Part shown: piece by piece, positions 32,991 through 57,599 of the stretch
Position numbering within the stretch: the first letter of the stretch is position 1
Layout: each line of letters begins with the position of its first letter
Origin: a virus
Direction: 5' to 3' (one strand)
Virus record (IMG/VR): IMGVR_UViG_3300034104_003402
Coordinates: 20,370-84,369 of that record
Length of the DNA: 64,000 bases
Position numbers and translations under genes: made by a program
Notes under the pieces: generated by a model
Database searches by the model: none
What the model was told of the DNA's origin: nothing
What the model saw: only the letters and a program-made list of their open reading frames with translations

Positions 32991-33006
32991 TTTATATACT
33001 CCAAAG

Positions 33007-33081: not shown

Positions 33082-33085
33082 AGAA

Positions 33086-33157: not shown

Positions 33158-33178
33158 AAAAAGTCCGAGCCATTATAG

Positions 33179-34231
33179 TTAGGTGAAAATGGTATTGAGT
33201 TGACGGTTAACTCGGACAAATGTTGTGCATTTTGGCAAGTCCTTCAAGCGAGCAGCCCCCACATAAGTGCAAGCCGAACGAACTCCACCAAGAATTTGTT
33301 GCATCACGCCATCCACAGGACCAACAGGCTTCACATGAACCCGCTTACCTTCTGCGGCACGATATTGTGCAACTCCTCCTGAATACTTTTCCATTGCAGT
33401 AGCGGAACTCATGCCGTAGAATTCTTTGCCGTCTTCGGTTTCCTCACCTGCGGCTTCATCAGTTCCTGCAAACATGCCACCAATCATAACAAAGTCTGCG
33501 CCTGCACCGAATGCCTTGGCTACATCACCGGGGCAGGTGCACCCACCGTCCGAAAGCACATAGCCACCTAGTCCGTGTGCGGCATCAGCACACTCCATGA
33601 TGCACGATAGTTGCGGGTAGCCCACGCCTGCAACCTTTCGTGTGGTGCAAACCGATCCTGGCCCAATTCCAATCTTCACAATGTTCGCCCCTGCTAGAAT
33701 TAAGGCTTCAGTCATTTCTCGTGTTACCACATTGCCTGCAATCAAGATATGGTTGGGGAATGCTTCACGAATGGTTTGCACATATCGCACAAACTTTTCA
33801 GTATAGCCGTTAGCCACATCCACACAGATAAACTTGATAGCAGGACTGTTACGCATCACCTCTTGTGCTTTCTGAAGTTCAGCAAAATTGTTGCTATCGC
33901 TACCCATACCCATTGTGTAAACTAGTCCACAATTAGGGTGACGAGCAAACCACCCGCTTGTTTCTCTACGCCAATCGTCTACGGTGTAATACTTGTGAAC
34001 AGCACACAAGGCATTGTGCTTTTCCAAGGCTTCTGCCATTGAAAAAGTTCCGATGGTGTCCATGTTTGATGCCATGATTGGAACGCCTTCCCAAACTGTT
34101 TCTTTACCTGCTGCCAAACGAAAATTAAAACGACGAAGCAAATCAACTTTATTTCTGCTGTCAAGGTTGCTACGCTTTGGGCGAATCAACACATCTGCAA
34201 AGTCAAGTTTCACATCATCTTCAATCTTCAT
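33179..34231 (-). CDS. guaC: GMP reductase
   Basis: 350 residues from the ATG at 34231, which has AAGGAG ending in the gmd stop; the upstream ATG lies in gmd. [20 protein letters not shown] holds the catalytic Cys and its Thr; the following [40 protein letters not shown] and YRAAEGK are diagnostic of GMP reductase rather than IMP dehydrogenase. No CBS domains. Converts GMP to IMP with NADPH, so together with PurA it routes guanine to adenine nucleotides. Confidence 0.93.
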
Positions 34232-34235
34232 ACTA

Positions 34236-35225
34236 TCACTCCTTGTAGGTGGCGTAATCCGAATCAAACATCATACGAGCAAGAGCAGGCATATCATACT
34301 TTGGTTGCCAACCCAACACTCGCTTCGCCTTAGCAGGATTTCCTAGCAGGTAGGGAACCTCGTTTGGTCGGAAAAGTCTTGGATCAATTTCCACATACTT
34401 ATTGTAATCACCAAGACCCGCGTAGTCAAATACTACTTCCAAGAATTCACGAACAGTATGAGTTCGGTTGGTGGCAATCACATAATCGTCTGGAGTGTTT
34501 TGCTGAAGCATCAACCACATGGCTTCCACATAATCGCCAGCAAAACCCCAATCTCGCTTAGAGTCAAGATTTCCAAGGAACAGTTTGTTTTGCAATCCTG
34601 CTTTAATCTTGGCTGCTGCCATAGTAATCTTGCGAGTCACAAAGGTTTCGCCACGACGAGGACTTTCGTGATTAAACAGAATGCCGGATGAAGCGTGAAG
34701 TTCATAAGCATTACGATACACTCGCGTCATGTGATGAGCATGAAGTTTAGCCACCGCATACGGAGATACTGGCATCATTCGGCTAGTTTCCGTGTAACCG
34801 TGCTGATCGTAATCATCGCTATCTCCAAACATTTCGGATGAAGAAGCCTGATAGTAACGAGTAGCCGGACTTACAGTTCGGATGGCTTCAAGAATCTTGA
34901 GAGTTCCTTGAGCGATACCATCAGAAGTATATTCAGGAACATCAAAGGAAACTGCAACATGCGACTGAGCAGCAATATTGTAGAATTCGTTTGGCTGATA
35001 CTTATCCAACAGATGCACGATTGCCGCTCCGTCCGACAGATCGTAGTAGTGCATCTTGAATTGTGAATTTGAGATTGGATTGTCGTAGATGTGATCCACT
35101 CGTCCAGTATTGATGGACGAAGTTCTACGCTTCAGACCCACCACATAGTAACCCTTGGAAATCAAAAGGTCAGCAAGGTAAGAACCATCCTGACCGTTAA
35201 CACCAGTTATCATCGCTGTCTTCAT
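34236..35225 (-). CDS. gmd: GDP-mannose 4,6-dehydratase
   Basis: 329 residues. [15 protein letters not shown] is the nucleotide loop; [14 protein letters not shown] binds GDP-mannose; SSSEMFG holds the catalytic Ser/Glu and [10 protein letters not shown] the YxxxK pair; [19 protein letters not shown] completes the family signature. It makes GDP-4-keto-6-deoxymannose, substrate of the ColD-like enzyme (7.8 kb) and of Fcl (29.6 kb). Confidence 0.95.
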
Positions 35226-35272
35226 GTTTTCCTCATCATTAAAAGTTCACTCAAACAACCCGATTATTTAGA

Positions 35273-35376
35273 CGGGGATGCGGGAATCGAACCCGCCACT
35301 AATGAATTATCTAGAATGATTTCATCAGCGATTCTACCGATGGTTGTTACTCCTTCAACCAAAGAACTCTCCCCAT
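35273..35376 (-). ncRNA. tRNA-like RNA of unclear type
   Basis: A perfect T-arm (GCGGG-TTCGATT-CCCGC, 35280-35296) is followed by TCCCC, which pairs with GGGGA about 90 nt upstream. No normal anticodon arm fits. Instead the insert can fold TGGTTG/CAACCA and TAGAAT/ATTCTA stems. The piece may be a decayed tRNA, a tRNA with an insertion or an unknown tRNA-like element. It lies between gmd and a structured spacer. Confidence 0.4.
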
Positions 35377-35544
35377 AAAAGAAAGGCAGCAGACCTGATG
35401 CTCTCTAGTGGCCATCTAGAAGAAACATCCAACTACGCCCCCCGACTGTATCGCAAACTCTTGTTCCTACTGTTAGTGAGCAGGGAGATGGATAGACAGT
35501 TCAAAGGTTTTTGATGGGGTTAACAATCCCATCAAGGTTTTTAG
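35377..35544 (-). other. 168-nt non-coding spacer with hairpin
   Basis: No open reading frame of note. The TTGATGGG and CCCATCAA arms at 35511-35518 and 35528-35535 form a perfect 8-bp stem with flanking AAGGTTTTT on both sides. Downstream in minus direction lie GGGGGGCGTAG and an inverted CTAGATGGCCACTAGAG. It is transcribed with tRNA-Glu from the promoter at 35.6 kb. Could be a processed RNA. Confidence 0.4.
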
Positions 35545-35617
35545 TGACCCTACGGAGATTCGAACTCCGGTCAAGAGGATGAAAGCCTCCTATCCTAGAC
35601 CACTAGACGATAGGGCC
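35545..35617 (-). tRNA. tRNA-Glu (anticodon UUC)
   Basis: 73 nt. Acceptor GGCCCTA/TAGGGTC, anticodon loop CTTTCAT, T-arm CGGAG-TTCGAAT-CTCCG, discriminator A. Confidence 0.88.
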
Positions 35618-35636
35618 AAGTAACTTCAACTAGAGT

Positions 35637-35664
35637 ATTATATCGTGCTAACCGTCCCTGTCAA
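35637..35664 (-). promoter_or_regulatory. Strong sigma70-like promoter for tRNA-Glu and gmd
   Basis: Minus-strand TTGACA, 16-base spacer, TATAAT: consensus in both boxes. Lies just after the stop region of the 35.7 kb gene. Confidence 0.75.
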
Positions 35665-35668
35665 GGGA

Positions 35669-36031
35669 TTAAGTTAAACGAAGCAGATATTTTGTCTGAT
35701 TCAGAACAGCAAGCATCTCGTCACGAATATTTAAAAGATCGGTGTCAGCCGTCTGATCCAACTTTGTTGGCAGTTCGTGAGTGAGATGATAGATGGCGGC
35801 GTTAATTACGCCCAACGAATTGGAATCCTTGTAGTTGTTAACATAGAAACTAAAACTTGGATTCCCCAAGGTATTGCCGTATTTGCCTGTGTGAACTTCC
35901 ATAAACTTATCAACCAAGCCATCAAGATCTTCGTAAGCCTTTCCTAAAGCCTTATGTTCGGCATAAGACTTGGTTTGCCAGTGAAGCACTCGTAGTTGAG
36001 ATTGAAGTTGTAGGAAGAATGTTACGCACAT
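35669..36031 (-). CDS. Ferritin-like helical protein, unknown function
   Basis: 120 residues. LQSQLRVLHWQTKSYAEHKALGKAYEDLDGLVDKFME resembles the first two helices of the Dps/ferritin four-helix bundle (LHWxxxxxxxHxxxxxxYxxxDxxxD). Phage proteins of this type are annotated as DUF5856 (from memory). Ferroxidase residues are not obvious, so the role is open. Confidence 0.6.
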   Translation of the reverse strand: MCVTFFLQLQSQLRVLHWQTKSYAEHKALGKAYEDLDGLVDKFMEVHTGKYGNTLGNPSFSFYVNNYKDSNSLGVINAAIYHLTHELPTKLDQTADTDLLNIRDEMLAVLNQTKYLLRLT

Positions 36032-36055
36032 GGTTTAGTATATAGTCCAAGTCAA

Positions 36056-36130
36056 AGGTCGGAGTGAGATTTGAACTCACGAAATCACGGATTTGCAATC
36101 CGTTCCCTTAAGCCACTTGGGTATCCGACC
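36056..36130 (-). tRNA. tRNA-Cys (anticodon GCA)
   Basis: 75 nt. Acceptor GGTCGGA/TCCGACC, anticodon loop TTGCAAA on ACGGA/TCCGT, T-arm GTGAG-TTCAAAT-CTCAC. Confidence 0.9.
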
Positions 36131-36134
36131 AAAG

Positions 36135-36219
36135 CGGGCAGAGAAGGATTCGAACCCTCGGAGGCATTCACCTCGGCGGTTTAGTAAACCGCTGCATTAG
36201 ACCACTCTGCCATCTGCCC
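36135..36219 (-). tRNA. tRNA-Ser (anticodon ACU, unusual)
   Basis: 85 nt with long variable arm and discriminator G, both typical for Ser. Acceptor GGGCAGA/TCTGCCC, stem GCGGT/ACCGC around loop TTACTAA, giving anticodon ACU. Bacterial Ser tRNAs for AGY normally carry GCU; A34 here is rare. Confidence 0.8.
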
Positions 36220-36225
36220 TAAAAG

Positions 36226-36306
36226 TGCGTCGTGTAGGACTCGAACCTACGAAGTCAAAGACAACAGATTTACAGTCTGTCCCAGTTGCCGCTTTGGTAA
36301 CGACGC
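36226..36306 (-). tRNA. tRNA-Tyr (anticodon GUA)
   Basis: 81 nt with a long variable arm. Acceptor GCGTCGT/ACGACGC, anticodon loop CTGTAAA on ACAGA/TCTGT, T-arm GTAGG-TTCGAGT-CCTAC. Confidence 0.9.
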
Positions 36307-36310
36307 TTAA

Positions 36311-36398
36311 CGGGCAGAGAGGGATTCGAACCCCCGGTAGATTGTTCACCTACTGTTGTTTTCAAGACAACCGCGTTAGACCACTCCGCCATCTGCCC
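36311..36398 (-). tRNA. tRNA-Ser (anticodon UGA)
   Basis: 88 nt with long variable arm. Same GGGCAGA/TCTGCCC acceptor as the neighbouring Ser gene, anticodon loop CTTGAAA on GTTGT/ACAAC, discriminator G. The two Ser genes look like duplicates. Confidence 0.9.
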
Positions 36399-36404
36399 CA
36401 TATT

Positions 36405-36611
36405 TCACTCAGAAAGGAATCGCTTGCTTTCGTTGATTCCTTGCTTGGCTCGTTCAATGATGTTGCGTTCCGCTTCCGCATATCCCTGTCGATACTCAGC
36501 CCAATATGGTTGAGTGACGGCATACGAAACAGAACGGTCGGCTAGTCCTGCCATCCGATCTTGATAGCCGTCTTTGTAGCCTTGTCCTGGAATGTATCCG
36601 TGTGTGTTCAT
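36405..36611 (-). CDS. Hypothetical small protein
   Basis: 68 residues from the ATG at 36611 (upstream is tRNA-Ala). YIPGQGYKDGYQDRMAGL and YWAEYRQGYAEAERN repeat a Y-x3-G-Y pattern seen in small phage proteins. Unknown role. Confidence 0.5.
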   Translation of the reverse strand: MNTHGYIPGQGYKDGYQDRMAGLADRSVSYAVTQPYWAEYRQGYAEAERNIIERAKQGINESKRFLSE

Positions 36612-36628
36612 ACTGCGGTCTCCTGTAG

Positions 36629-36701
36629 TGGATCGAAGAGGACTCGAACCTCCAACCCATGCCTTGCAAAGGCATTGTTCTCCCAATTGAACTATCGACC
36701 C
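36629..36701 (-). tRNA. tRNA-Ala (anticodon UGC)
   Basis: 73 nt. Acceptor GGGTCGA/TCGATCC, anticodon loop TTTGCAA on ATGCC/GGCAT, T-arm GGAGG-TTCGAGT-CCTCT, discriminator A. Confidence 0.88.
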
Positions 36702-36704
36702 TTA

Positions 36705-36914
36705 TTAATCCTTCATAAATTCTACGCCATCAATTTTTGTAAAAGAGGCTGCATAATCATTGGCTCGTTTCCAAAGATCACCATCAATCTCTTTCACATA
36801 TTCAGCAAACTTCAATCCAAACAACATGATAGCCTGATGATATCGCTTCACCGTTTCGGGATCACGAATCTCATTGCCGTCATCATCTGTCGGATAGAAG
36901 TTCCACTTTTCCAT
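36705..36914 (-). CDS. Hypothetical small protein
   Basis: 69 residues from the ATG at 36914, preceded by GGAG. YHQAIMLFGLKFAEYVKEIDGDLWKRANDYA suggests a helical hairpin. Unknown. Confidence 0.5.
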   Translation of the reverse strand: MEKWNFYPTDDDGNEIRDPETVKRYHQAIMLFGLKFAEYVKEIDGDLWKRANDYAASFTKIDGVEFMKD

Positions 36915-36928
36915 ACCTGTCTCCAAAA

Positions 36929-36999
36929 TTGCCCGACCTAGATTCGAACTAGGACAGAGAGGACCAAAATCTCTCGTGCTACCGTTACACCATCGGGCA
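36929..36999 (-). tRNA. tRNA-Gln (anticodon UUG)
   Basis: 71 nt. Acceptor TGCCCGA/TCGGGCA, anticodon loop TTTTGGT on AGAGA/CCTCT, T-arm CTAG-TTCGAAT-CTAG, discriminator A. Confidence 0.85.
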
Positions 37000-37024
37000 G
37001 GTGCATCCTTGCACTACTCCGCTA

Positions 37025-37237
37025 TCAGCAAGCGGGAGTGTTACCGCCAAAAAGACCCATCACCACATTGATGACAGCGACCACGGCGTTCTTCAGCCAC
37101 AAGGCTCCATTCCAAGCGAACGGAAGCAGGGCGAGAGTAACGAGCATGCTACGGTTGACTCCAACCTTGGAAAGAAGGCAATTCAACTTGTCGCAGCCAC
37201 CAGTAACAGGGCATGAGCCCGATTCAAACTTAGCCAT
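37025..37237 (-). CDS. Small Cys-containing membrane protein
   Basis: 70 residues. N-terminal CPVTGGCDKLNC then a hydrophobic segment (MLVTLALLPFAW) and a second (AVVAVINVVMGLFG). Two TM helices with a Cys-rich outer end; could be a small membrane or pinholin-like protein, but there is no direct evidence. Confidence 0.5.
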   Translation of the reverse strand: MAKFESGSCPVTGGCDKLNCLLSKVGVNRSMLVTLALLPFAWNGALWLKNAVVAVINVVMGLFGGNTPAC

Positions 37238-37291
37238 TTTTTTCTCCTTATGTTAAAGTTAATTGGGGATGGCAATCCCCTAATCCCCCAA

Positions 37292-37645
37292 TTATCTGCG
37301 CTTCTTCTTTGAAGCAGTGCAGAGTTCTGGTTCCGCCTTTTCGTTCAGGCGTTCGATCTGATATTCAACTTCGCAAAGACGATCACAAACACTGTCCTCG
37401 ACCTGGTTGATAGCCGTGCGAGCATCACCAATCTCAAGACTAAGATTACGAATCTCTTCTCTAATATTGTGATTGGACAGTTTAGCAGCGTTATCAATCT
37501 TACGATTCAACTCATCATAGATTGAATTAATAGTTCTCTGATTTTCCTCGTCGCGCTTCTTTGAGTTTGCAACCAAAGTGCTGATAGCAGAGAATGCGTT
37601 AGCCGCGAGTGAGAGACCAAGCAATCCGTAAAGATAAGTATCCAT
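37292..37645 (-). CDS. Membrane-anchored coiled-coil protein
   Basis: 117 residues from the ATG at 37645, preceded by AAAGGAGAAT. N-terminal TM helix (YLYGLLGLSLAANAFSAISTLV), then a Gln/Glu/Arg-rich coiled coil and a basic tail. This is the plan of an i-spanin, but no partner o-spanin is adjacent. The lipoprotein-like gene at 40.1 kb is a candidate partner. Confidence 0.5.
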   Translation of the reverse strand: MDTYLYGLLGLSLAANAFSAISTLVANSKKRDEENQRTINSIYDELNRKIDNAAKLSNHNIREEIRNLSLEIGDARTAINQVEDSVCDRLCEVEYQIERLNEKAEPELCTASKKKRR

Positions 37646-37683
37646 AATGTATTCTCCTTTCAAGAGAAGGTGAGTGTATTTAG

Positions 37684-37941
37684 TGCTCCGGGTGGGACTC
37701 GAACCCACAACCTACCGATTAACTTACCACTTCGGCTTACGCCGCCCTTACGGTTCGTGGTCTGGACTTTGCCTTCATCCGTTCTGGATGCCCGCCGTCA
37801 AGTCTCTACACCTTCCCTTTCGGGCTTGGCTCGGCGTTGGGTCTTTCAACCGTCCACCGAATTTGACGAGTTTCATGTTTTGTATTCCTACAAAACTGCT
37901 CCTATTGAAGTCGGCTACTCTACCAATTGAGTTACCGAAGC
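37684..37941 (-). tRNA. tRNA-Lys (anticodon UUU), interrupted by a group I intron
   Basis: 258 bp. Exons 37908-37941 and 37684-37722 join to a 73-nt cloverleaf: acceptor GCTTCGG/CCGGAGC, anticodon loop CTTTTAA on CCGA/TCGG, T-arm GTGGG-TTCGAGT-CCCAC, discriminator A. The intron lies between U34 and U35. Confidence 0.85.
37723..37907 (-). other. 185-nt group I self-splicing intron (IC3-like) in tRNA-Lys
   Basis: Core elements in order: CAACGCCGAGCCAAGC, then GGTGTAGAGACTTGACGGC (P7 region) and GGCAAAGTCCAGACC, all close to the Azoarcus tRNA-Ile and Anabaena tRNA-Leu introns. The 5' exon ends in U and the intron in G. GAGC near the 5' end can form P1 with the exon GACUU with a G-U at the splice site. 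No open reading frame inside. Shorter than Azoarcus (205 nt) and Anabaena (249 nt). Confidence 0.88.
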
Positions 37942-37956
37942 ATATTAACTTGTAAG

Positions 37957-38031
37957 CGTTCCTGATAGGATTCGAACCTATGACCTGATGCTTAGAAGGC
38001 ATCTGCACTATCCAGGCTGTGCTACAGGAAC
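37957..38031 (-). tRNA. tRNA-Arg (anticodon UCU)
   Basis: 75 nt. Acceptor GTTCCTG/CAGGAAC, anticodon loop CTTCTAA on GATGC/GCATC, T-arm ATAGG-TTCGAAT-CCTAT, discriminator G. Confidence 0.9.
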
Positions 38032-39835: not shown

Positions 39836-40126
39836 TTATCGTTTGGCTGTTTGCCAATCTGGAACTTGTGGTAATGATTGATCTCCAACTGATTCTTTAG
39901 CATTTGCTCCTGCGGCTTTTAACCACTTTGCAACCATTTCTCTACGACGCTCGGCATATAAAGCATTCTCAACTTCCCAAGGAAGTTTTGTTCTTTCAAA
40001 ACCATCATATTTTTCCACATCAAAATCTGTTGGAACCATGTCTGCTTGAAATCCTAAACCATAAGTGAAAACTCCGGTTCCATTCGCCGGCCCTTCTTCA
40101 CGAATGTATTGTTTAAACGATTTCAT
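39836..40126 (-). CDS. Small protein with capsid-targeting-like N-terminus
   Basis: 96 residues. Begins MKSFKQYIREEG, matching the T4 internal-protein leader MKTYQEFIAEA with an I-x-E cleavage position. The rest (TYGLGFQADMVPTDFDVEKYDG) is not recognised. Stands alone from the main tagged cluster. Confidence 0.6.
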   Translation of the reverse strand: MKSFKQYIREEGPANGTGVFTYGLGFQADMVPTDFDVEKYDGFERTKLPWEVENALYAERRREMVAKWLKAAGANAKESVGDQSLPQVPDWQTAKR

Positions 40127-43353: not shown

Positions 43354-43920
43354 ATGAAATCGTTTCGCACATTCTTAAACGAGCAAAGCGACCCAAAATG
43401 TTTGGAGCAATCCAAATTTGTTTGGCGTGGTGCTGTTAAAGAGAGTGCTATCTGCAATTTTAAAGATGGGATTGTCTGGCAAGGAGCCATTCAATCTGTT
43501 CCGCTTTTCAACATTAAAGGTGGAGTGATGTGGGAAGGAGCCTTGCAAGCCAAGGCTATCGGAAACTTTAAAGGTGGAATTCTTTGGGCAGGTATGATTC
43601 AACAAACTCCGCTATGCAATATGCGCGAAGGTGTTGTATGGCAAGGAGCCGTTCAAGCAAAGGCTGTTGCCAACTACGGCATACAGATTGGTCAAGCAAA
43701 CGAGTGCGGCTCCGAAAGTCTGTTTTTGTGGAAAGATATGGTTAGAAGTGTTGCGTTCTTCAATTCCAACACTAAACTTAGCAACCACATGAAAATGGCT
43801 TTAGTGTATTGGTTCTTGATGCGTAGCAAGTCTACAAATAAAAAAGCAGCCTCGGCGGTTAAGCCAAAGGCTGCTGTTTCAAAGCCAAAGTCTAAATCGA
43901 CTCAAGCATCCAAAGCGTAA
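43354..43920 (+). CDS. Repeat protein with capsid-targeting-like N-terminus, plus strand
   Basis: 188 residues. Leader MKSFRTFLNEQS fits L-x-E cleavage. Residues 19-110 hold about five copies of a 19-20 residue unit, F-K-x-G-(I/V)-(V/L/M)-W-x-G-A-x-Q. Lys/Ala/Ser-rich tail. The repeat suggests a solenoid or beta fold, similar in rhythm to MORN-like repeats but different in sequence. Ends convergently, overlapping the minus gene by 19 bases. Confidence 0.65.
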   Translation: MKSFRTFLNEQSDPKCLEQSKFVWRGAVKESAICNFKDGIVWQGAIQSVPLFNIKGGVMWEGALQAKAIGNFKGGILWAGMIQQTPLCNMREGVVWQGAVQAKAVANYGIQIGQANECGSESLFLWKDMVRSVAFFNSNTKLSNHMKMALVYWFLMRSKSTNKKAASAVKPKAAVSKPKSKSTQASKA

Positions 43921-48298: not shown

Positions 48299-49555
48299 TT
48301 ACCAGGTGTAACGCATTTCGGTGGGCTGTAGGCCGAACTTATCCAAGAACGAACCTAATCCAAGTCCACGAATTGCTCGACTTAAAATTGCCGCAAAGAT
48401 TGAAACTACTTTACGCAAAGCCTCAACAAACTTTTTAAATCCTTCTTTAACATATTGATAACCTTTCATGCCTGCGTTAACCACATTTTGTTTTGCGGTT
48501 TTCAACCAATCGCCCAATCCTTCATTGAAACATTGCATGTAGTATTCGTAGTTCTGTTCCAACATCATGCCGTCGAACGCTTCATCTAGTTCGCCTGCAT
48601 CTCCTGCTTTCTGAGCGAAGTCTAATCGGAACGCAATGCCACGAGAACCGCCACCGCTCTTGCTGCTCTTTCTTCCACGGTCACGCAAACCGAACTTGAA
48701 GCGAGGCAACATGTGGTCAATGAATTCGTCTGCATCCATAAACTTAATGCTGCCGTCATCAAACCATTCCAAGAAGTGAGTGGCTATAAAGTCAGGTTTG
48801 TTAAATCGTTTTTCACCTGTCGCAAACTCACGAAGTAGTTTCTTGCGATTCTCATTTTTCAACATGAACTTGGTCATTTCAATTGTTATCTTTTCACGAA
48901 CTCCAATCAAATCCAAGAATTCGTTTATCTGTTCTAGTTCGCGGTCGAACGGAACTCCTGTTCCACTCTTCAAACCAGTAACCACACTTATCAGGCGGTC
49001 AAATTCATCTTTACCATATTTGGTTTCAAACTTCTTGCGAGTCTGCTTGTAGACTGTTTCGTTACCGGTTTGAATAATAATGTTAGAAATGGTTTTAGCA
49101 ATTTCTGCACCTTCTGTTTTTCCAAAGGTTGCGTTAAGCACCGCGTAGATTTCGTTGGTTTGTGCGGAAGCAATTTGTGCTGCTGCTCCGTTTTTAACCG
49201 AGGAGCAATACTTTTTGCCGCTCTGATTTAAGAACACAATATCGGTTTTTGGTTCGCCACTCTTAATGCTCTTGCCTGGCCCACCTTCCAAGTATGCAGG
49301 AGTGATTACCGAAGTGGGTGCTCGACCTGCCATCTGCCAAGCCAAGCGAGGCTTGCCAATCCTTTTAATCAACTCTTTAATGCAAGACTTAGCCGCAACT
49401 TCCGCTGCTTTGCTTTGATACTTTAGTCCAGTAGCACGACTTTTGCCTTCGCTTGAAATTTCATTGAAAGCCTTGGTTAAATCAATTTCAAATTTAGTGG
49501 AATTGATAGACTCTGTTAGGTAGAGTTCTCCAAGTAGTCCGGTTAAAGTCTTCAT
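48299..49555 (-). CDS. Tagged protein with possible PD-(D/E)xK nuclease site
   Basis: 418 residues. Leader MKTLTGLLGELYLTESIN has L-x-E sites (LGE, LTE) like prohead-protease targets. EPKTDIVFLNQ followed by YCSSVKNG resembles a restriction-like D-x(n)-(S/E)-x-K core. C-terminal helices are amphipathic and hydrophobic (VVSIFAAILSRAIRGLGLG). It may be a packaged nuclease-like protein. Nuclease identity is an inference. Confidence 0.6.
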   Translation of the reverse strand: MKTLTGLLGELYLTESINSTKFEIDLTKAFNEISSEGKSRATGLKYQSKAAEVAAKSCIKELIKRIGKPRLAWQMAGRAPTSVITPAYLEGGPGKSIKSGEPKTDIVFLNQSGKKYCSSVKNGAAAQIASAQTNEIYAVLNATFGKTEGAEIAKTISNIIIQTGNETVYKQTRKKFETKYGKDEFDRLISVVTGLKSGTGVPFDRELEQINEFLDLIGVREKITIEMTKFMLKNENRKKLLREFATGEKRFNKPDFIATHFLEWFDDGSIKFMDADEFIDHMLPRFKFGLRDRGRKSSKSGGGSRGIAFRLDFAQKAGDAGELDEAFDGMMLEQNYEYYMQCFNEGLGDWLKTAKQNVVNAGMKGYQYVKEGFKKFVEALRKVVSIFAAILSRAIRGLGLGSFLDKFGLQPTEMRYTW

Positions 49556-49580
49556 ATCGGTATTTATTCTTTCTGCGTGA

Positions 49581-50528
49581 TTATGACACTAGTGATACTA
49601 GTGCGTTAAATGCTTTTTCTGTGGCATCAACGCTTGTGAAGAACTTTCGGAAGTGACGCAAGAATATTGCTTTATCTTCCTTCTTCCAATCCCAAACAGT
49701 TGTGCGCTCATCCGAATTGCTCCATTCTGGATCTTTCCCGTATCCTCCTGGCGCGTTCTGCATCATGGCAACAAATCCTCTCAAAGGCACATAAACCTTG
49801 CAACGAATCGGCTTATTGCTTAAACGAAGCACTTCCTCTTCATCATCAATACTTCCCATTACTGCATTAAGTATATCGCTGCTTGCTTTGCCGTCAAACA
49901 GAGTTTCTTGTTTGGTTAACTGTGCTTCCATGATTGCCATAACGCGAGACCTGTTGGTGCGTTCACGAACATATTTTACCGATATTTTACCAAATGATTC
50001 GGCAACCCTAAATGTTGTTGACCACGATTGTCCTTCATACCTAGAACTGTAGGTCATATCTCCAATCAGGTAAGTGCTGCTGCCAGTAAATGCCGCATCC
50101 TTAAATTTCACGCTCTTGAAGTCATCCATTCCTAATGTGGTTCCGCGATATGCTTCACCATCATACCAAGTCCAAGAAGCACGAGACGGACAAGCAAGCA
50201 ATTTTTTCAATCCTAGTTTTACTGAATTCATGTCACTTTGCGAACGATTTGAATCTATAGAAATTTTGAAATGCTCTCCGATATTTACTGCTGCCATCCA
50301 AATTTCTTTTGTTAGATTTGGTGCAGCAGGCGCAAACTTTTTGCGATACTCTTCGTATGCAACTCTTATTTTCAAGGTTTCAATCATCGCGTAATCGTAA
50401 CGGACAGTTTCAAATCTTTCGTAACATAAATACACCAACTCCTGTAACGGTCTAACCATAGGTTGGCGCAGCCACCAGCAGATGCCTTCGTTTGGGGTCT
50501 CTTGAAGATAGTTCGTGAACCCTTTCAT
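49581..50528 (-). CDS. ADP-ribosyltransferase with capsid-targeting leader, copy 1
   Basis: 315 residues. Leader MKGFTNYLQET (L-x-E). The R-S-E motif set of arginine ADP-ribosyltransferases is present: R128 in YRGTT, SWS at 168-170 in GQSWSTTFRVAESF, and E230-x-E232 in DDEEEVLRLSN. Upstream ACPSRASW is shared with its paralogs. Alt and Mod enzymes of T4 use the same fold to modify host RNA polymerase. NAD is the substrate. Confidence 0.82.
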   Translation of the reverse strand: MKGFTNYLQETPNEGICWWLRQPMVRPLQELVYLCYERFETVRYDYAMIETLKIRVAYEEYRKKFAPAAPNLTKEIWMAAVNIGEHFKISIDSNRSQSDMNSVKLGLKKLLACPSRASWTWYDGEAYRGTTLGMDDFKSVKFKDAAFTGSSTYLIGDMTYSSRYEGQSWSTTFRVAESFGKISVKYVRERTNRSRVMAIMEAQLTKQETLFDGKASSDILNAVMGSIDDEEEVLRLSNKPIRCKVYVPLRGFVAMMQNAPGGYGKDPEWSNSDERTTVWDWKKEDKAIFLRHFRKFFTSVDATEKAFNALVSLVS

Positions 50529-51322
50529 ACGGAATACTTACTTACCTTTTTCTCAAAGTGTTTCCACAAGTTGCTTGTGCTCATTCGTTTTAACGCATCT
50601 TCTCCGGTAATTTTAGCAAGACGAGTTTTGAATGTTTTAATATCTCTTTCGTCTGCATTCCCTATACTGAAGTCTACTAGATTGCCCCATGCGCTCCATA
50701 GGGAAACATAAGCACGAACCTGTATTGGTGTGTTGCTTACACGAAGAATTTCTTTCTCTTCGGTGTGAGCAGATATCTGACGAATCACATCAGGTGTTAA
50801 GAAAGTTTCTTGTCGTTTAACACGATGCTCAATTATGATTTGGATGGCATCTTCAGTAAAAGAAGGTATTGTGTAGGTTGTAAATTGTTGTGCCACCCTA
50901 AACTCGTAACTCCACGATTGAATTGGATGCTCTGATTTATAAGTTCCTGTAGCCACAAGATATTCCACACCGTTAAATTCAACCAATTCTCCTGTAAACT
51001 TAAATTTCTCGGCAAGATAACGAGAAGTCTTATTAAGCCCACGCCAAACTGGTATGTTATCAAACGAGTAAGTCCAGTTTGCACGATTCTTACATTTACA
51101 CATTTCAATTATAGCATTATGAACACTAGGTTTTCTTATGCTTGAATCAAAATAATAAATCAACGCGCTTGAGTATTTTTTCAGTGAACCCATACCAGAA
51201 GAAACAGGATGTTTAACCATATCTACAAACGCTTCTTCGGTTGGTTGAGACAGCAATTCACAGATGGTTGGCCCCTTTGTCGTTTTGGTGGCTTCTTGAA
51301 GATAGTCTATGAAATCTTTCAT
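50525..51322 (-). CDS. ADP-ribosyltransferase with capsid-targeting leader, copy 2
   Basis: 265 residues. Leader MKDFIDYLQEAT. R94 in VWRGL, SWS at 136-138 in SWSYEFRVAQQF and E189-x-E191 in EEKEILRVSN complete the R-S-E set. Smallest of the four copies. ATGA overlap on both sides. Confidence 0.82.
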   Translation of the reverse strand: MKDFIDYLQEATKTTKGPTICELLSQPTEEAFVDMVKHPVSSGMGSLKKYSSALIYYFDSSIRKPSVHNAIIEMCKCKNRANWTYSFDNIPVWRGLNKTSRYLAEKFKFTGELVEFNGVEYLVATGTYKSEHPIQSWSYEFRVAQQFTTYTIPSFTEDAIQIIIEHRVKRQETFLTPDVIRQISAHTEEKEILRVSNTPIQVRAYVSLWSAWGNLVDFSIGNADERDIKTFKTRLAKITGEDALKRMSTSNLWKHFEKKVSKYSV

Positions 51323-52206
51323 GTTAACTTCTCGTTTGAGTTCACAGTAATCTTACCTTTATCCCATCGTGCTGTCCACTTTGCGGTTTTAACAAGCGAG
51401 TCCCAAATCTTTCTGGCTTCGCGTGTGTAGATGTTTGAGCGTTTCGGGTCTGTCCAATTTGCTATTGAAGGCGAATACCAATACGAGACATCATATTCTG
51501 TAATGGTATTCTTATCATCAGTAAGATGCCCGAAAATTCTATAAGGGTGTATGCCGTTCGTTGCCTTGCCTTGATATTTTGCAGTAACTTTCTCAGGCTC
51601 TGCAATGATGTGCAACACTTCAGGTATAGTGCCGTAACCCTTCTTCAGTTTTTCAACTATACTTTCCACACTTCCTTTTGCGTTTTTAATTTCACGGTCT
51701 GTCATCTCGGTGATAGGTTTACGCATGTGTGAAGTCAAATCAAGCATCACCACCGTAGGATTAATGCCGTTCATAAACGCAATATCCATTCGCGTGTTGC
51801 CTGCAAGAACTCGCATATCTCCTTTAGGAAACTTCACCACGATAGGCATATCTACCGGCTTGCCTGCCTTTATAAGTTTCTCTAAATCTTTAAGTGTATC
51901 TTCATTTCTAAACTTTGGAAACGAACGATATCCTGAGATAAGATCTAGTAGTTCTTCCATGTCTCGGGTGCGACTGCGATTGTGAATCTTACGGTCGGTA
52001 GCAGAATCAATCTGCATCGTGGGAGCAGACTTTACCGCTTTCAGAAACTCTGCTTCGGTTGGAAAAATGTTTCTAGGCAACTCGTGAATCAGATGCTTCA
52101 AATACTCAATCTGATATTCTTTGCGAATGCTAGCATCGCTTGGGCGAACCCAATTGCCGCGTTTCGCTTCACTCAAAACTTCTCGTAGTTGCCAGTAGTC
52201 TTTCAC
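51319..52206 (-). CDS. Tagged ParB-like nuclease-domain protein
   Basis: 295 residues. Leader MKDYWQLREVLSEA, L-x-E then Ala, is almost identical in type to T4 internal proteins. Central MPIVVKFPKGDMRVLAGNTRMDIAFMNGI matches the ParB/Srx core (V-x-x-G-N/H-x-R-x-x-A). C-terminus KWTARWDKGKI. May cut or modify DNA or nucleotides after injection. Flanked by ADP-ribosyltransferases. Confidence 0.65.
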   Translation of the reverse strand: MKDYWQLREVLSEAKRGNWVRPSDASIRKEYQIEYLKHLIHELPRNIFPTEAEFLKAVKSAPTMQIDSATDRKIHNRSRTRDMEELLDLISGYRSFPKFRNEDTLKDLEKLIKAGKPVDMPIVVKFPKGDMRVLAGNTRMDIAFMNGINPTVVMLDLTSHMRKPITEMTDREIKNAKGSVESIVEKLKKGYGTIPEVLHIIAEPEKVTAKYQGKATNGIHPYRIFGHLTDDKNTITEYDVSYWYSPSIANWTDPKRSNIYTREARKIWDSLVKTAKWTARWDKGKITVNSNEKLT

Positions 52207-53351
52207 GATTTTTCTCGCAACAGAGTCTTGTAAATATACGCTACCGCTTCAGTATCATTACGAACTGCTGATACGAGAGTTCCTTTGGTGAGAATAAACT
52301 TCGCTTTAATTGGAGCATTAGACACGCGAATCACTTCCTCTTCAGAAGATGAAATTCCTGCACGAGCCGCCAATTTTCTTGAAGCCCGTTCACTAAGCAT
52401 ACACTGCTCTTTAGGAACCGCTGCGGAAATTATCACAGGAGCAGAACCAGATACTTTTGCGGTTCCAGGCTTAGGCATTACTCCTCCTGAAATTCCTGAG
52501 ATGTGTAACTCGGCTTCAGGAGAACCGCTAGCCTCTGAGCCTGCCGATCTTGCAAAATTTTTAGCGACAGCAATACTTCTTGTCCAAGATTGTGCTCCAA
52601 GTCTGCTCTGATAGATTCCCTCGGCGTGTAAGTCGTTTCCGACTCGTTTCCATTTCAACTCTTTAAGTTTATCCCAAGACATAGTTTTGCCGCGATACAA
52701 ACTTCCCTTGAAATCTGCTTTTGTCCAATCGCCTCGTGTTGGACACGCTTGTATTGCTTTAAACACTCCTAGCACCGAGGCTTTACCGCGACCCATTAAA
52801 TCGGAACCAAACCAATCATCAAATGCCGTGTCAATTTTATCGGCTACAGATTCAAGGGTTTTCATTCCGTCTAAAATCCACGCATCTAATAACTCTTTAG
52901 TATTATCGTTCCAAAGATATGAGTCTTTAAGTCCGTCAATCACATACACCATGTCATCAAGAGATAAACTCACGAAGTCGCATATGGTGACACCTGAGAA
53001 ATTGGGAAATCCTAAATTATCCTTTTTGCCTTTACTTAACTTGGTAAATATCTTCTTGTCTTCTGGGTCAAATTGGTAATCACTAGCAGGGCGAGGTTTT
53101 GATTTACTTGAGTTACCCGATTTACTAGATTTACTTGAGTTCTTGTCAAGTCCGTATTCTCGTATAATTACTTCAGCCCATAATTCGCTCCATTCCATCC
53201 CGTCTGGAGTCCAGCCACCCCGAAGTTTTTTAGCCAAGGCTGCATCTCCTCCAAACTTTCTACTCCATTCTTTCCAGTATGCATCCCAAGACTCGTTTAC
53301 GAGTTTGCTTGAAGTTTTCAACTCTTGTTTTAATTGCCAGTAGTCTTTCAT
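52203..53351 (-). CDS. ADP-ribosyltransferase with capsid-targeting leader, copy 3
   Basis: 382 residues from the ATG at 53351 (a GTG two codons earlier overlaps the upstream stop). Leader MKDYWQLKQELK. LYRGKTMSW, AQSWTRSIAVAKNFA and SSSEEEVIRVSN form the R-S-E set. A Ser-rich region and a DFVSLSLDDMVY segment precede it. Long N-terminal region shared with the next gene (KIF/KILT-like KLSKGKKD, FPNFSGVTICDFVS). Confidence 0.82.
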   Translation of the reverse strand: MKDYWQLKQELKTSSKLVNESWDAYWKEWSRKFGGDAALAKKLRGGWTPDGMEWSELWAEVIIREYGLDKNSSKSSKSGNSSKSKPRPASDYQFDPEDKKIFTKLSKGKKDNLGFPNFSGVTICDFVSLSLDDMVYVIDGLKDSYLWNDNTKELLDAWILDGMKTLESVADKIDTAFDDWFGSDLMGRGKASVLGVFKAIQACPTRGDWTKADFKGSLYRGKTMSWDKLKELKWKRVGNDLHAEGIYQSRLGAQSWTRSIAVAKNFARSAGSEASGSPEAELHISGISGGVMPKPGTAKVSGSAPVIISAAVPKEQCMLSERASRKLAARAGISSSEEEVIRVSNAPIKAKFILTKGTLVSAVRNDTEAVAYIYKTLLREKS

Positions 53352-53353
53352 GT

Positions 53354-54307
53354 TCACTTCCTCTTACCAATGATATTGAAGATGTGGTCAATCTGCTCAT
53401 CGTTGTGGGTTACAGTTTCCAACATTTCTCGTGTAACCGTAAACTTTGCTCGGATAGGTTCTGTGGAAACACGAAGCACTTCTTTCTCGTTTAATTCGCC
53501 GTATTCTATCGCTCTTTGAATTTTATCAATCATGTGAGGATTAAACACGCAATCTTTCGCTGGAATGTTGGCTTGAATAATCACAGGAAGGAATCCTGTT
53601 ATATTTCTTCCGTATATCTCTTCTTCTCTTGCATCACTCCAACCTGTTGGTATTTCTAAATCCATATCACTCATAGCCCCTTCATTCCCTGCGGCAAATT
53701 TTTTTGCTACCTTTAGGTCTATGGTCCACGATTGCATTGCTAGTTTGCTTTGATAGATTGCGGTGCATTCTAGATTCTTACCTACAACTCGCCACGGCAT
53801 ACTCTTAAATCTACCCCAAGAAATTCGTTTGCCGCGATACAGGATTCCGCCTGAGAATCGTGCCCAATCGCCTCGTGTGGAACACGCTTTAATATCACGG
53901 AACACTTGCACCACTGAAGACTTGCCGCCACCCATCAAAACATCTCCGAACGCATCACCAAACGCTTCTCGTATTCTGTCCGTCATTCCTGTGAGAGCAT
54001 TCCAACCGCGAACCTTGTAATCCGAGTAGTTTACGAAATAATCGCTTTGTCTTTTAGAACCTTCTCCGTCTGTAGCCTTAAGCATCTGACAGAAATCTTG
54101 AAGATTTAGAGAAATCAAATCACAGAAAGTTACGCCGGTAAAATCAGGAATGCCATTCTCATCTCGCTTGCCTCGACTGACCTTAAGCAATATCTTTTCA
54201 TCAGCCGGATGAAATCCTGCACCGTGTCCTCCAAAATCATATTCACGCTTCAGTTTAATCTTCTGAGCGGCGGTTAGATCTTCGCGTAGATACCAGTAGT
54301 CTTTCAT
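53354..54307 (-). CDS. ADP-ribosyltransferase with capsid-targeting leader, copy 4
   Basis: 317 residues. Leader MKDYWYLREDLTAAQ. R158 in LYRGKRISW, SWT at 193-195 in MQSWTIDLKVAKKFA and E-x-E in LNEKEVLRVS. Near copy of the preceding gene, including IPDFTGVTFCDLIS and ACSTRGDW. Together they look like a recent duplication. Confidence 0.82.
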   Translation of the reverse strand: MKDYWYLREDLTAAQKIKLKREYDFGGHGAGFHPADEKILLKVSRGKRDENGIPDFTGVTFCDLISLNLQDFCQMLKATDGEGSKRQSDYFVNYSDYKVRGWNALTGMTDRIREAFGDAFGDVLMGGGKSSVVQVFRDIKACSTRGDWARFSGGILYRGKRISWGRFKSMPWRVVGKNLECTAIYQSKLAMQSWTIDLKVAKKFAAGNEGAMSDMDLEIPTGWSDAREEEIYGRNITGFLPVIIQANIPAKDCVFNPHMIDKIQRAIEYGELNEKEVLRVSTEPIRAKFTVTREMLETVTHNDEQIDHIFNIIGKRK

Positions 54308-55092
54308 GTGATGATATAATTTTCCGCTGCAATTCTTGTTGCAAGTGTCTTGGTTGTTCTTGATTGACGAGCACTGTTGGGCGCATACAAATCTAGTTCA
54401 ATTTTCACCTCGCCAGGTATCGTGGCAAGAATTTCACGAACCGCCAATCTTGCGGCAAGTTTACTTGTGCCTTCTAAAGTTATCCAAGAGTCGGAGTGCC
54501 GTCTTCCGTAAACTTTAAACCAGCCTTTATCGTAAACTCGTCGTTGCAGCGGAAAGCAAAGATCTATAACTTCATTTTGAATGAGTTCTTTAATATGATG
54601 AGGTTCTAGTTTTTCGCCGTCCTCAAGATCGAATTTTGATTCATAATACTCTGTGTCGAAATGCGATTTGTTTTTAAGGTATTCGTCTAGTGCCTGCTCC
54701 ATTTCGCTGTTTGAGATACCAAATCGCTGCGGTTTATTTACAATCTGTGTGGTATGATATCCGTCGCTATCGTGGAAGAAAGTGAACCATTGATTAGAGG
54801 CATGCCACCAGCCTGCACGATCTTTATCCCACGGAAACGGAGTTCGAGTGGGCTTTGCTATGCCAAGTTTCTTTAATCGTTCAAGTTTCTTCAATCCGGC
54901 GGCATCTCTACGCTGTGCGGCTGCAATCATGGCTTGACCGCGTGGACTACGCTCAAACTTTAAACGCAACTCGCGCTCGCGTGGAGTTTCCACATGCCCG
55001 CCTCGTGGTTCAAATGCGTTCGGGTTGGTGTAGATGCCCAACAGTTCATCTAGTTGTCGTAATTCGGTTAACAGTTCAGATAAGGTTTTCAT
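54304..55092 (-). CDS. Tagged protein, unknown
   Basis: 262 residues. Leader MKTLSELLTELRQLDE. Middle RAGWWHASNQWFTFFHDSDGYHTTQI and HIKELIQNEVIDLCFP, basic Arg-rich helix near 45-75. Not recognised as a known enzyme. ATGA overlap with copy 4. Confidence 0.6.
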   Translation of the reverse strand: MKTLSELLTELRQLDELLGIYTNPNAFEPRGGHVETPRERELRLKFERSPRGQAMIAAAQRRDAAGLKKLERLKKLGIAKPTRTPFPWDKDRAGWWHASNQWFTFFHDSDGYHTTQIVNKPQRFGISNSEMEQALDEYLKNKSHFDTEYYESKFDLEDGEKLEPHHIKELIQNEVIDLCFPLQRRVYDKGWFKVYGRRHSDSWITLEGTSKLAARLAVREILATIPGEVKIELDLYAPNSARQSRTTKTLATRIAAENYIIT

Positions 55093-55096
55093 AAGA

Positions 55097-55603
55097 TTAC
55101 TCCCACAACATATCGTCGCCGCGATCTAGCATTACACGACGAGAGGCTTTATCTAAAACTTGCAGACCTGTGCCTGCGGCTTTCAGTTCCACCTCTTTGC
55201 CGCTCATGCTTATATAAGTTTCGCGTCCCATCTTCATGGCTTTCTTAATGAACATGGTTTGTGGGCTACCGTCAAGTTTTTTCCCCATGATCTCAATTTT
55301 AACACCTACAGGTTTAATGCTGAGAGTCAGGATCATATCTTTCGCGGTATCAATCGCGGCTTTGGTCATCTGTCGAGTAGCCGACCATGCTTTCGCGTTT
55401 CGCTTAGGAATAATGTTACCCATCGGATCAGTTTTACGAGCCTTGAGTGGCTTCTGTGAACCTACAAATCTGCGTGGATCGTCTAGATCAACTCCGTAAC
55501 CGATTGTGCCTAAACTAGGCCCCTTGGGAAACTTTGGTTTCGGGGCTTCAGTTAAACCTAACACAATCTCGGCGGCTTCAAGAATTTGCAAATATCGCTT
55601 CAT
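55097..55603 (-). CDS. Tagged protein, unknown
   Basis: 168 residues. Leader MKRYLQILEAAEIVLGLTEAP holds two possible L-x-E sites (ILE, LTE). Pro/Lys-rich linker, then TKAAIDTAKDMILTLSIKPVGVKIEIMGKKL. Possibly first gene of the tagged operon, with CTAAATA upstream. Confidence 0.6.
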   Translation of the reverse strand: MKRYLQILEAAEIVLGLTEAPKPKFPKGPSLGTIGYGVDLDDPRRFVGSQKPLKARKTDPMGNIIPKRNAKAWSATRQMTKAAIDTAKDMILTLSIKPVGVKIEIMGKKLDGSPQTMFIKKAMKMGRETYISMSGKEVELKAAGTGLQVLDKASRRVMLDRGDDMLWE

Positions 55604-55645
55604 GGTGGAACTCCTACGAATACTTTATTTAGGTTTTCAAACGAA

Positions 55646-55692: not shown

Positions 55693-56169
55693 TTATCGAC
55701 AGTTCTTGTTTTTGCAGACTGTGGATTTCTTATCTGCGTTTATAGTTATAGTGCTGTATGCCCACGAAGGATATAAACTTTCTTCAAACCACTGCACCGT
55801 TGGATATCCTGCCAAACCTGGAACTTTACCTGGTATTTGGGCTACACACTGGTTTAATACTCTTCCGTAAGCCCACGCTACCTCTCGATAGCACATGCCT
55901 CTAGTCATGGAATCACCATAACTGTCACATCCTCGATATTGATCTCTTCTGTAATCGTCTGCTTCCTTCTTGCAGTTTGCCTCTTCTGCAAGCCAAAGAT
56001 CAACCTGTTGCTGATACCAATTAGTTTTCCAGGTGGTATCGCAGTCGGCACGACAAGCCGATAATGCCGCATCGGTCAAGGTATCGGTTCTAGCAGTTCG
56101 ATCTTCTGGAGGAGCAATGAAGGATCGTTGAAACGACGAGTAAATTGTGTTATCGAATTCGTTGGCCAT
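55693..56169 (-). CDS. Cysteine-rich protein, NWY-Q-V family
   Basis: 158 residues with about 10 Cys. WKTNWYQQQVDLWLAEEANC and GKVPGLAGYPTVQWFEESLYPSWAYST resemble segments of the gene at 57.7 kb (NWYEEQVGLFLDKFLEC; KGIPGMMEPLSVYEN). No signal peptide. Probably a virion or disulphide-bonded injected protein. CTAAATA-like box upstream. Confidence 0.6.
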   Translation of the reverse strand: MANEFDNTIYSSFQRSFIAPPEDRTARTDTLTDAALSACRADCDTTWKTNWYQQQVDLWLAEEANCKKEADDYRRDQYRGCDSYGDSMTRGMCYREVAWAYGRVLNQCVAQIPGKVPGLAGYPTVQWFEESLYPSWAYSTITINADKKSTVCKNKNCR

Positions 56170-56249: not shown

Positions 56250-56963
56250 CTATTTTCGAACGATCTTTTTAGAGGTTACAAACGGCGAACCTGGCGCGAA
56301 CCATGCTAACTGCGTGTTTGCTATTTCAGGACGAGACGGAGGAATCGCGTAAATTTGAATGCCACTTTTCGCGGCTAGGCGTTTCGCTATGCCGTTGTAA
56401 ATTAAAGCCCGAGCAGGTCTAGCCCCGGCTTTGGTTCCCCACATAATCCCTACGGGTTTTTTTCTAGCCGTAAAGTCTTCAACAATTTGAATAATTGAAC
56501 CAAATACTCGCATCACATGAGAAGTATCGGTTCCACCTAAATCTTCATCTGTGCCTTGATCGAACCCGCTGCCGTCCGTGTCCACATAGGTGGCAAAGCC
56601 TAACTCCCATACTCGCTCCCATAACGGTAATTCAATTTGTTTGCCAGTTTTTGCTAGCCCGCGATTCACTCGCTGCCAGTCTTTAAACGCGGTTGTTCCG
56701 CGATACTGTGTGAACTGCACGGCGACGCGCTGACGCTCGGCGGGTGTGTTTTTTCGATACGCTCCCAGAATGCGTTGAGTGGTGGCAATGGAGCGAGGAA
56801 CTCCTGGTGTGAACTCGGGGCCTGGATCAGGAATCCACTCCTTGCTTCCGCGTAACCGCATCACATCAAACTGATAGTCCATGTTTGTGTCGCCAGAACT
56901 CCACAATCGCCACGGATACGAGCGTTCAAAGATTTCATTGAGGTAGGTTTGAAAGTATTTCAC
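56250..56963 (-). CDS. Tagged protein, unknown
   Basis: 237 residues. Leader MKYFQTYLNEIFERS with L-x-E. FTQYRGTTAFKDWQRV recalls the R motif of the ADP-ribosyltransferases, but no SWS or E-x-E follow. C-terminal half FATYVDTDGSGFDQGTDED and GIMWGTKAGARPARALIYNGIAKRLAAKSG; ends in VTSKKIVRK. A late-type box lies directly upstream. Confidence 0.58.
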   Translation of the reverse strand: MKYFQTYLNEIFERSYPWRLWSSGDTNMDYQFDVMRLRGSKEWIPDPGPEFTPGVPRSIATTQRILGAYRKNTPAERQRVAVQFTQYRGTTAFKDWQRVNRGLAKTGKQIELPLWERVWELGFATYVDTDGSGFDQGTDEDLGGTDTSHVMRVFGSIIQIVEDFTARKKPVGIMWGTKAGARPARALIYNGIAKRLAAKSGIQIYAIPPSRPEIANTQLAWFAPGSPFVTSKKIVRK

Positions 56964-56969: not shown

Positions 56970-56977
56970 TATTTATC
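56970..56977 (-). promoter_or_regulatory. Late-promoter-like GATAAATA
   Basis: One base from the TATAAATA consensus, just before the gene at 56250-56963. A second box, AATAAATA at 57065-57072, lies about 100 bases upstream. Confidence 0.5.
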
Positions 56978-57083: not shown

Positions 57084-57599
57084 TCAACCCGACAAGGTTC
57101 CTGCGGTTTGTTGTTGATAAGCAGGATTCTTAGAACAGTTTGGATATTGTCGATCTAGATTAACAAGATCTTGATAGTATTTGTCGTTAATCTCCTTGGA
57201 GGTTTTTCGCCAAATGTCGTCACACTCAGATGCCATTCTTGATCCTGAGTCCAAACAGCATACGATACCGGAACAATTCGCACCTGGTGCGCCAAGTGGC
57301 GTTTTGGGCCATTGGTAAGTTCTACCAGCGTTAGTATCAATTAAACAAAGAAAACTCATACTTTCCGATTGTCTTTCGCAGTCTCGTAGTTTCTGAAATT
57401 CTGCGTCTATTTGTTTCTTGCGAGTTTCAAATAGAAGGTCTCTCTTCTGTCTATACATCAAACAATTTTCTGGACGATATCCTTCGTTAGATGAGCCTTT
57501 TGGTCGATTTTGCTGCGTGATAAATGTGTTTATAAAAGCATCGTTTACGAGATTTTCTTCGTTTTTTTTAAAAACTAAATTCAAGTTTGAATTATCCAA
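57084..57599 (-). CDS. Cysteine-rich protein
   Basis: 171 residues with 10 Cys, including CSGIVCC. Helical charged part RKKQIDAEFQKLRDCERQ and a later SECDDIWRKTSKEI. C-terminus QQQTAGTLSG. Same general plan as neighbours at 55.7 and 57.7 kb. Confidence 0.58.
   Translation of the reverse strand: MDNSNLNLVFKKNEENLVNDAFINTFITQQNRPKGSSNEGYRPENCLMYRQKRDLLFETRKKQIDAEFQKLRDCERQSESMSFLCLIDTNAGRTYQWPKTPLGAPGANCSGIVCCLDSGSRMASECDDIWRKTSKEINDKYYQDLVNLDRQYPNCSKNPAYQQQTAGTLSG

Follow-up and report, generated by a model that had tools for sequence, protein, structure and literature searches.

Results

The operon and its genes

The stretch of DNA considered here, hereafter the window, comprises 64,000 nucleotides (nt) of the viral record IMGVR_UViG_3300034104_003402 (positions 20,370 to 84,369) and is part of an 84,369-base contig, G000, of which G001 and G002 are the two closest relative contigs. 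Our subject is an operon at 48299-55603 of the window, in which an initial annotation made from the letters alone had seen seven overlapping genes for capsid-targeted proteins, four of them ADP-ribosyltransferases (ARTs). The genes are indeed consecutive and on the minus strand, but there are eight of them, not seven. They are given below, with ART1 to ART4 standing for predicted ARTs and a slash marking each predicted cleavage point.

55097-55603, minus strand: 168 amino acids (aa), body of no assigned function; leader MKRYLQILE/AAEIVLGLTE/APKPKFPKGP; ratio of nonsynonymous to synonymous substitution (dN/dS) about 0.1
54304-55092, minus strand: 262 aa, body of no assigned function; leader MKTLSELLTE/L, in the strict register of T4 internal protein III (IPIII); site retained in the orthologous loci L001 and L005
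53354-54307, minus strand: ART1, 317 aa; leader MKDYWYLRE/D; R158-G, S193, E274xE276
52203-53357, minus strand: ART2, 384 aa (382 from the ATG at 53351); R-S-E motifs; leader MKDYWQLKQELK without L/I-x-E
51319-52206, minus strand: ParB/sulfiredoxin-like protein, 295 aa; leader MKDYWQLREVLSE/A; core from NWVRPSD; motif GNTRMDIAF
50525-51322, minus strand: ART3, 265 aa; leader MKDFIDYLQE/A, strict register; R94-G, S136, E189xE191
49581-50528, minus strand: ART4, 315 aa; leader MKGFTNYLQE/T, strict register; R-S-E motifs; site retained in L001 and L005
48299-49555, minus strand: 418 aa, possible PD-(D/E)xK-like site; leader MKTLTGLLGE/LYLTE/S; body EPKTD...SVK

From 54304 down to 49581 each start overlaps the preceding stop (ATGA or GTGA), and a 25-nt gap precedes the gene at 48299-49555. 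All eight orthologues occur in the same order in IMGVR_UViG_3300035663_000005, with about 96% DNA identity over the operon region, and, in diverged form, in IMGVR_UViG_3300007735_000799. Because dN/dS lies at about 0.1-0.5 across the eight genes, the mark of purifying selection, we take all of them to be real; the highest values between the two closest genomes belong to ART1 and ART2. Gene content varies between close relatives, with four versus six ARTs and, in one of them, a ParB-ART fusion. Among named phages the operon had no DNA-level match, and tblastn with ART1 and with an ART of G002 found none.

Leaders and cleavage sites

The T4 prohead protease gp21 cuts after L/I-x-E, and mutagenesis of the IPIII capsid-targeting sequence (CTS) assigned head targeting to residues 4 and 7 and processing to residues 8 and 10 (PMC9026906). 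Seven of the eight operon proteins carry a leader with L/I-x-E, four of them in the exact IPIII register; the T4-type leader that had been claimed for every operon gene holds for these seven and fails for 52203-53357, whose MKDYWQLKQELK is site-less. The strict register (hydrophobic residues at 4 and 7, L or I at 8, E at 10) is fitted by 48299, 49581, 50525 and 54304 in the operon, by the adjoining 56250, and by 39836 and 43354 elsewhere in the window; in 51319, 53354 and 55097 the site is shifted by one or a few residues (E9 or E13).

Because this strict pattern was composed after the leaders had been seen, the count of 7 fitting genes among the 88 of the contig, where shuffling predicts 0.011, is descriptive, and the tests on T4 and on the relative genomes are the more independent ones. 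Among the open reading frames (ORFs) of at least 50 aa in complete T4, only IPII, IPIII and 61.1 match the strict pattern. L/I-x-E lies in the first 20 residues of 24 of the 26 orthologues examined; of 325 windows of 20 aa taken from the protein bodies, 56 contain it (Fisher p 4e-15, or 1e-5 when each family is represented by one copy). The site persists where the rest of the leader changes: 48299 has MKTLTGLLGELYLTE/S versus MNKFTSFIHTKFLTE/G, with an LTE site common to all three orthologues despite the divergence of the remaining leader. Both orthologues of 55097 retain its sites (ILE at 9 and L-x-E at 19/20). G002 has two extra ARTs. One of them and two neighbours begin MKSFKTHLTE/A, MKSFKTHLTE/L and MKSFTTHLAE/Q, none of which had been used for the pattern; the second extra ART has MKDFQVFNEAAS at its start. 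ART1, ART2 and the ParB-like gene are identical over 14 bases at the start of the leader (TGAAAGACTACTGG), the ART and ParB bodies being unrelated, and the best profile match between the two families is the leader itself (P 0.03).

The reading of these leaders as T4-type capsid targeting is well supported, since it rests on the T4 register, on conservation of the site across genomes and, as described below, on presence or absence of the leader on one core, on relatives bearing an S77 protease and on an operon in Alishewanella phage Slicko01. Nine further contigs carry ART relatives, and four of these encode such a protease (E 1e-33 to 2e-37); one S77-bearing contig of 168 kb (G003) has a single cluster of leader-bearing genes of the ART, ParB and 56250 types.

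The ParB-like protein

The ParB-like core that had been noticed in one protein, 51319, is supported by its GNTRxDxAF motif and by a homologue of 46% identity in Rhodothermus phage RM378. The G-x-x-R pocket motif of the ParB/sulfiredoxin (Srx) superfamily takes the form GNTR[MI]DxAF and is conserved in four diverse homologues; the match to phrog_1033 is weak (E 0.21), and a separate C-terminal domain follows PITE/M. From N-W-V onwards this core is preceded by MKDYWQLREVLSE/A here, by MKFNFLYESMLNE/S in Slicko01 (40% identity), by MIKRFKQYIIE/K in L036, by MKSFSQHITE/A in L040 and by MKTFGAYMQLTE/K in L045, and in RM378 it has no leader at all. In these comparisons the leader behaves as a detachable module, carried by proteins whose bodies are otherwise unrelated. 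We rejected a plain origin of the leaders as paralogous N-termini, given that bodies of different families carry the leader and that the RM378 core is leaderless.

At L005:12054-13343 the ParB-like domain is fused in frame to an R-S-E ART, the ART3 domain replacing its C-terminal half. The junction reads KLTE/AAE; in the window, which encodes the two domains separately, the ParB-like protein has I-T-E at the equivalent position. ParB/Srx-like domains in injected polyvalent proteins have been proposed to be NTP-regulated DNases (PMC5512222), and 51319 is a putative ParB/Srx-like DNase/NTPase.

A parallel operon in phage Slicko01

The complete genome of the isolated phage Slicko01 (OQ508956) has eight consecutive genes at 85888-91558 whose products begin MKIDxLYESLLEE or variants of it, one product matching Pfam ART-PolyVal above the cut-off (E 2e-11) and another being the ParB orthologue. 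The same genome has an S77 protease (E 2.6e-21), a T4-type scaffold match and gp23, and the N-termini of the protease and of other small core-region proteins contain ITE/S or similar. To judge by its sequence, this operon is an independent parallel with a different leader and the same predicted role. Two database annotations of this phage deserve mention: 140130-141377, labelled 'DNA polymerase I', is gp23-like (PF07068, E 4e-68), and 138612-139223, labelled 'prohead core protein', is the S77 protease.

The ADP-ribosyltransferase-like proteins

That four of the proteins have the R-S-E motif set was confirmed, with R-G, Q-S-W and E-x-E in all four and in 19 of 19 relatives. R-G, Y-x-S, Q-S-W and ExE are retained in all four paralogues, whose overall identity is low, and among 19 diverse members, with mean column identity down to 23%, the sole invariant residues are C77, R94-G95, Y128, S130, Q135-S136-W137, F147, E189, E191 and R194 (ART3 numbering). 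Like these ARTs, T4 ModA and ModB have S-x7-A-x2-F (S96, A104, F107; that is, A at S+8 and F at S+11) and ExE (E163-Q-E165). Applied to the 582 ORFs of five phage genomes, the motif pattern recovered all four ARTs together with ModA and ModB, and the sole matches outside the ARTs were one primase orthologue pair (shuffled expectation 0.11).

The AlphaFold2 (AF2) model of ART1 (pLDDT 73.9) has the ART Vis as its three best PDB matches in Foldseek (4xzk, 4xzj and 4y1w; E 0.03, probability 0.84-0.85), and its matches in a viral structure library reach E 2e-5, with a head-morphogenesis protein among them and annotated ARTs lower in the list. In the ART3 model (pLDDT 83.5, pTM 0.80) R, S and E follow one another in the expected order, each in a strand or next to one. 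We regard the R-S-E motif reading as well supported and consider it likely that the four proteins are ARTs of the R-S-E type.

The remaining cargo

A possible nuclease site had been proposed for one of the proteins. In 48299-49555 an E-P-K-T-D...S-x-K pattern, EPKTD-x13-S-x-K, is conserved in L005 and in phage S-SM1, and it is no more than suggestive of a nuclease. The protein matches phrog_22045, a family of no assigned function (E 7e-12); its C-terminus, after NE/GLGDWL, is hydrophobic and helical, and its distant S-SM1 relative is leaderless. When scanned against Pfam and PHROGs, the operon proteins gave just weak matches or matches of unknown function.

Late-promoter-like elements, other leader genes and setting

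Three TAAATA elements lie near the genes discussed here.

55626-55631, minus strand: late-promoter-like TAAATA (CCTAAATA), 28 nt before the first operon gene
49561-49566, minus strand: late-promoter-like TAAATA, 11 nt before 49555
56970-56975: TAAATA upstream of 56250-56963

Noncoding [AC]TAAATA sites in the contig number 18 on the gene (minus) strand against 1 on the other, and by comparison with the T4 late promoter TATAAATA we infer that these sites may be late promoters and that transcription would be late.

Outside the operon, the window has three further genes with leaders in the strict register.

56250-56963, minus strand: upstream leader gene, 237 aa; MKYFQTYLNE/IFERSYPW; ITE in both orthologues
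39836-40126, minus strand: leader gene of 96 aa; MKSFKQYIRE/EGP; retained in G001 and G002
43354-43920, plus strand: 188-aa repeat protein; leader MKSFRTFLNE/Q; retained in G001 and G002

The last of these has GGI-W-x-G-like repeats and is among very few plus-strand genes. To the left of the window, a protein of 996 aa (L007:5288-8278, G000 17288-20278) has the strict register if its start is an internal GTG (MKKLSQLITEAP, L-I-T-E; 994-996 aa). Its domains are cytidylyl/NMN-transferase-like, a RimK-type ATP-grasp ligase (E 3.6e-29) and Zn_protease (E 1.6e-12), and it is a candidate packaged multi-enzyme. Similar leaders were seen on a nucleotidyltransferase of cyanophage S-SM1 (MKKFSAFLNEA) and on an HNH-nuclease-like protein inside the cluster of a relative (L041:9532-9813, MKSFKEYLEE/K). 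T4 gene 61.1 (NC_000866 18966-19130) encodes 54 aa with a perfect IPIII-register leader, MKTFKEFIKE/D; to our knowledge its product is not known as a virion protein.

The contig encodes replication proteins of T4-superfamily type (UvsX, gp41, gp44, gp45, ribonucleotide reductase and primase), a gp43 about 50% identical to cyanophage polymerases, and a CobT-like protein of a kind found mostly in cyanophages. Sixteen of the 17 tRNA genes of the window lie at 28442-38031, interspersed with metabolic genes, among them an adenylosuccinate synthetase-like gene named from its sequence (31738-32736). Small Cys-containing, leaderless proteins are encoded at 55693-56169 and 57084-57599, and L001 and L005 encode similar proteins in the matching position.

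Discussion

The operon, its leaders and its R-S-E motifs were thus confirmed overall, and the view of the initial annotation that they represent an enlarged set of injected effectors is upheld in part: the leaders and motifs speak for it, and the Alt profile, one site-less ART and a protease not on the contig do not. In our judgement this is probably a late operon of head-packaged, protease-trimmed and injected effectors in a T4-superfamily phage, extending the strategy of the T4 internal proteins (IPs) and Alt. The genes would be transcribed late from the TAAATA elements, and an N-terminal capsid-targeting propeptide of 9-15 residues would dock each protein into the prohead core, where a gp21-type S77 prohead protease, its gene lying outside the fragment, would cut after L/I-x-E and leave the body free in the head. 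The bodies would then be co-ejected into the host with the DNA, and the four paralogous R-S-E mono-ADP-ribosyltransferases would modify proteins or nucleic acids of the host ahead of all phage gene expression. The other cargo would comprise one ParB/Srx-like putative DNase/NTPase, one possible nuclease and two proteins without an assigned role. Packaging, cleavage, injection, activity and targets, that is, every step past the presence of the leader, are what we infer.

Several findings weigh against such a set of injected enzymes. No S77 protease or gp23 is found on G000-G002, and the gp21-type protease that was expected elsewhere in the genome is not on the 84-kb contig; since these contigs are fragments without a head module, gp21 is not expected there and its absence is uninformative. 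ART2 has no L/I-x-E in two of three genomes (here and L005), its L001 orthologue having LRE, though it could still be targeted, because a change at position 10 of IPIII blocked processing and left targeting intact (PMC9026906). The MK start is explained in part by the ATGA overlaps. As to the fold, the Foldseek comparison with the PDB gave weak support for ART1, with Vis at E 0.03, and no significant match for ART3, though ART3 has the better-scoring model. None of the four ARTs has a Pfam match, and phmmer and hmmsearch of PDB sequences found no ART. In hhalign the ART family is borderline against ModA/ModB (P 0.005) and not significant against T4 Alt (P 0.35, with T4 Alt aligned to 18 homologues), and membership in the Alt family is not supported.

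These null results for ART3, for Pfam and PDB sequences and for the Alt profile would suit a situation in which the proteins are packaged by their leaders but the R-S-E-like domains are not active ARTs, being either degenerate or of another fold and acting as inhibitors, for which T4 Ip1-3, inhibitors of GmrSD, set a precedent (PMC12373910). It is hard to reconcile with R, S and ExE remaining invariant in the 19 diverse members at so low an identity, with the specificity of the motif pattern and with Vis as the top PDB match of ART1, and we consider it improbable. A more radical proposal would be that the leaders are inherited or translational features, produced by gene duplication and ATGA coupling, and that the proteins do their work in the infected cell. 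In its favour, the operon includes four paralogous genes, ATGA overlaps favour MK, and ART2 is site-less. Yet the leader is common to unrelated bodies, the site at 8-10 and the hydrophobic residues at 4 and 7 go beyond any ATGA effect, the RM378 ParB core is leaderless, Slicko01 has another leader in the same role, and leaders occur on genes outside the operon; this proposal seems to us very unlikely.

Slower head assembly in IPIII mutants (PMC9026906) invites the further idea that the cargo is chiefly structural or serves assembly, as was suggested for T4 IPIII, effector activity being secondary. Conserved catalytic motif sets and a gene content that varies (four versus six ARTs, and the ParB-ART fusion) better fit an accessory arsenal, and we regard this idea, too, as very unlikely. 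The injected-effector operon remains our preferred interpretation.

If so, some eight injected proteins would come from a single operon, four of them ARTs unrecognised by Pfam, PHROGs and PDB sequence searches. With the leader as a rule, the injected effectors of uncultured T4-like phages could be catalogued from sequence, even where the cargo lacks a recognisable domain, and the rule is directly testable in the isolated phage Slicko01. What T4-like phages inject would become a question for proteomics across the whole superfamily. More tentatively, and as a possibility we would not yet call probable, the T4 superfamily may possess an open, modular injection platform, in which a prohead-core tag of about 10 residues plus a protease site makes an effector and each lineage has its own tag consensus. 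Fused effectors, such as the ParB/ART protein of L005 with its KLTE/AAE junction, would be freed by the prohead protease as a virion 'polyprotein', and the R-S-E ARTs would have radiated, four to six per phage, onto different host targets.

Comparison with known systems

No description of CTS-tagged ART operons was found in the literature searched, most subscription papers being outside its coverage. As far as that literature goes, the new elements are CTS-tagged operons in which four to six paralogous ARTs stand beside other cargo, gain and loss of the leader on one core, a lineage-specific leader consensus and a ParB-ART fusion with an internal site. The T4 head holds Alt plus three IPs. Our operon resembles IPI, IPII and IPIII in leader register, in the L/I-x-E site and in a shared leader on polymorphic bodies, and T-even phages are known to have injected IPs with shared leaders on polymorphic bodies (PMC12373910). 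The T4 IPs, however, are small inhibitors in two loci, whereas here mostly enzyme-like bodies of up to 418 aa are encoded in one operon. With ModA and ModB the ARTs have R-G, S-x7-A-x2-F and ExE in common, and a fate similar to that of Alt, which is head-packaged and gp21-processed, is proposed for them; in contrast to all three, they number four to six paralogues in each phage, every one with an IP-type leader of its own, and have QSW instead of the usual STS.

Head-packaging of phage ARTs has been held to be widespread, as inferred from context or MuF fusion (about 44%; PMC9503650). The polyvalent proteins of phages and plasmids (Iyer et al. 2017, PMC5512222) contain the same kinds of domain, ART and ParB-like DNase, and are predicted to be injected, although R-S-E ARTs are said to be absent from the genuine ones (PMC5512222). 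They carry several effector domains per chain, whereas here there is mostly one domain per gene plus a CTS, with a fusion only in L005. Another close parallel is Slicko01, which also has eight tandem genes with a common leader, a ParB-like orthologue, an ART-PolyVal protein and an S77 protease in its genome, but differs in its leader consensus (MKIDxLYESLLEEG), in largely other cargo and in that its operon is annotated as hypothetical.

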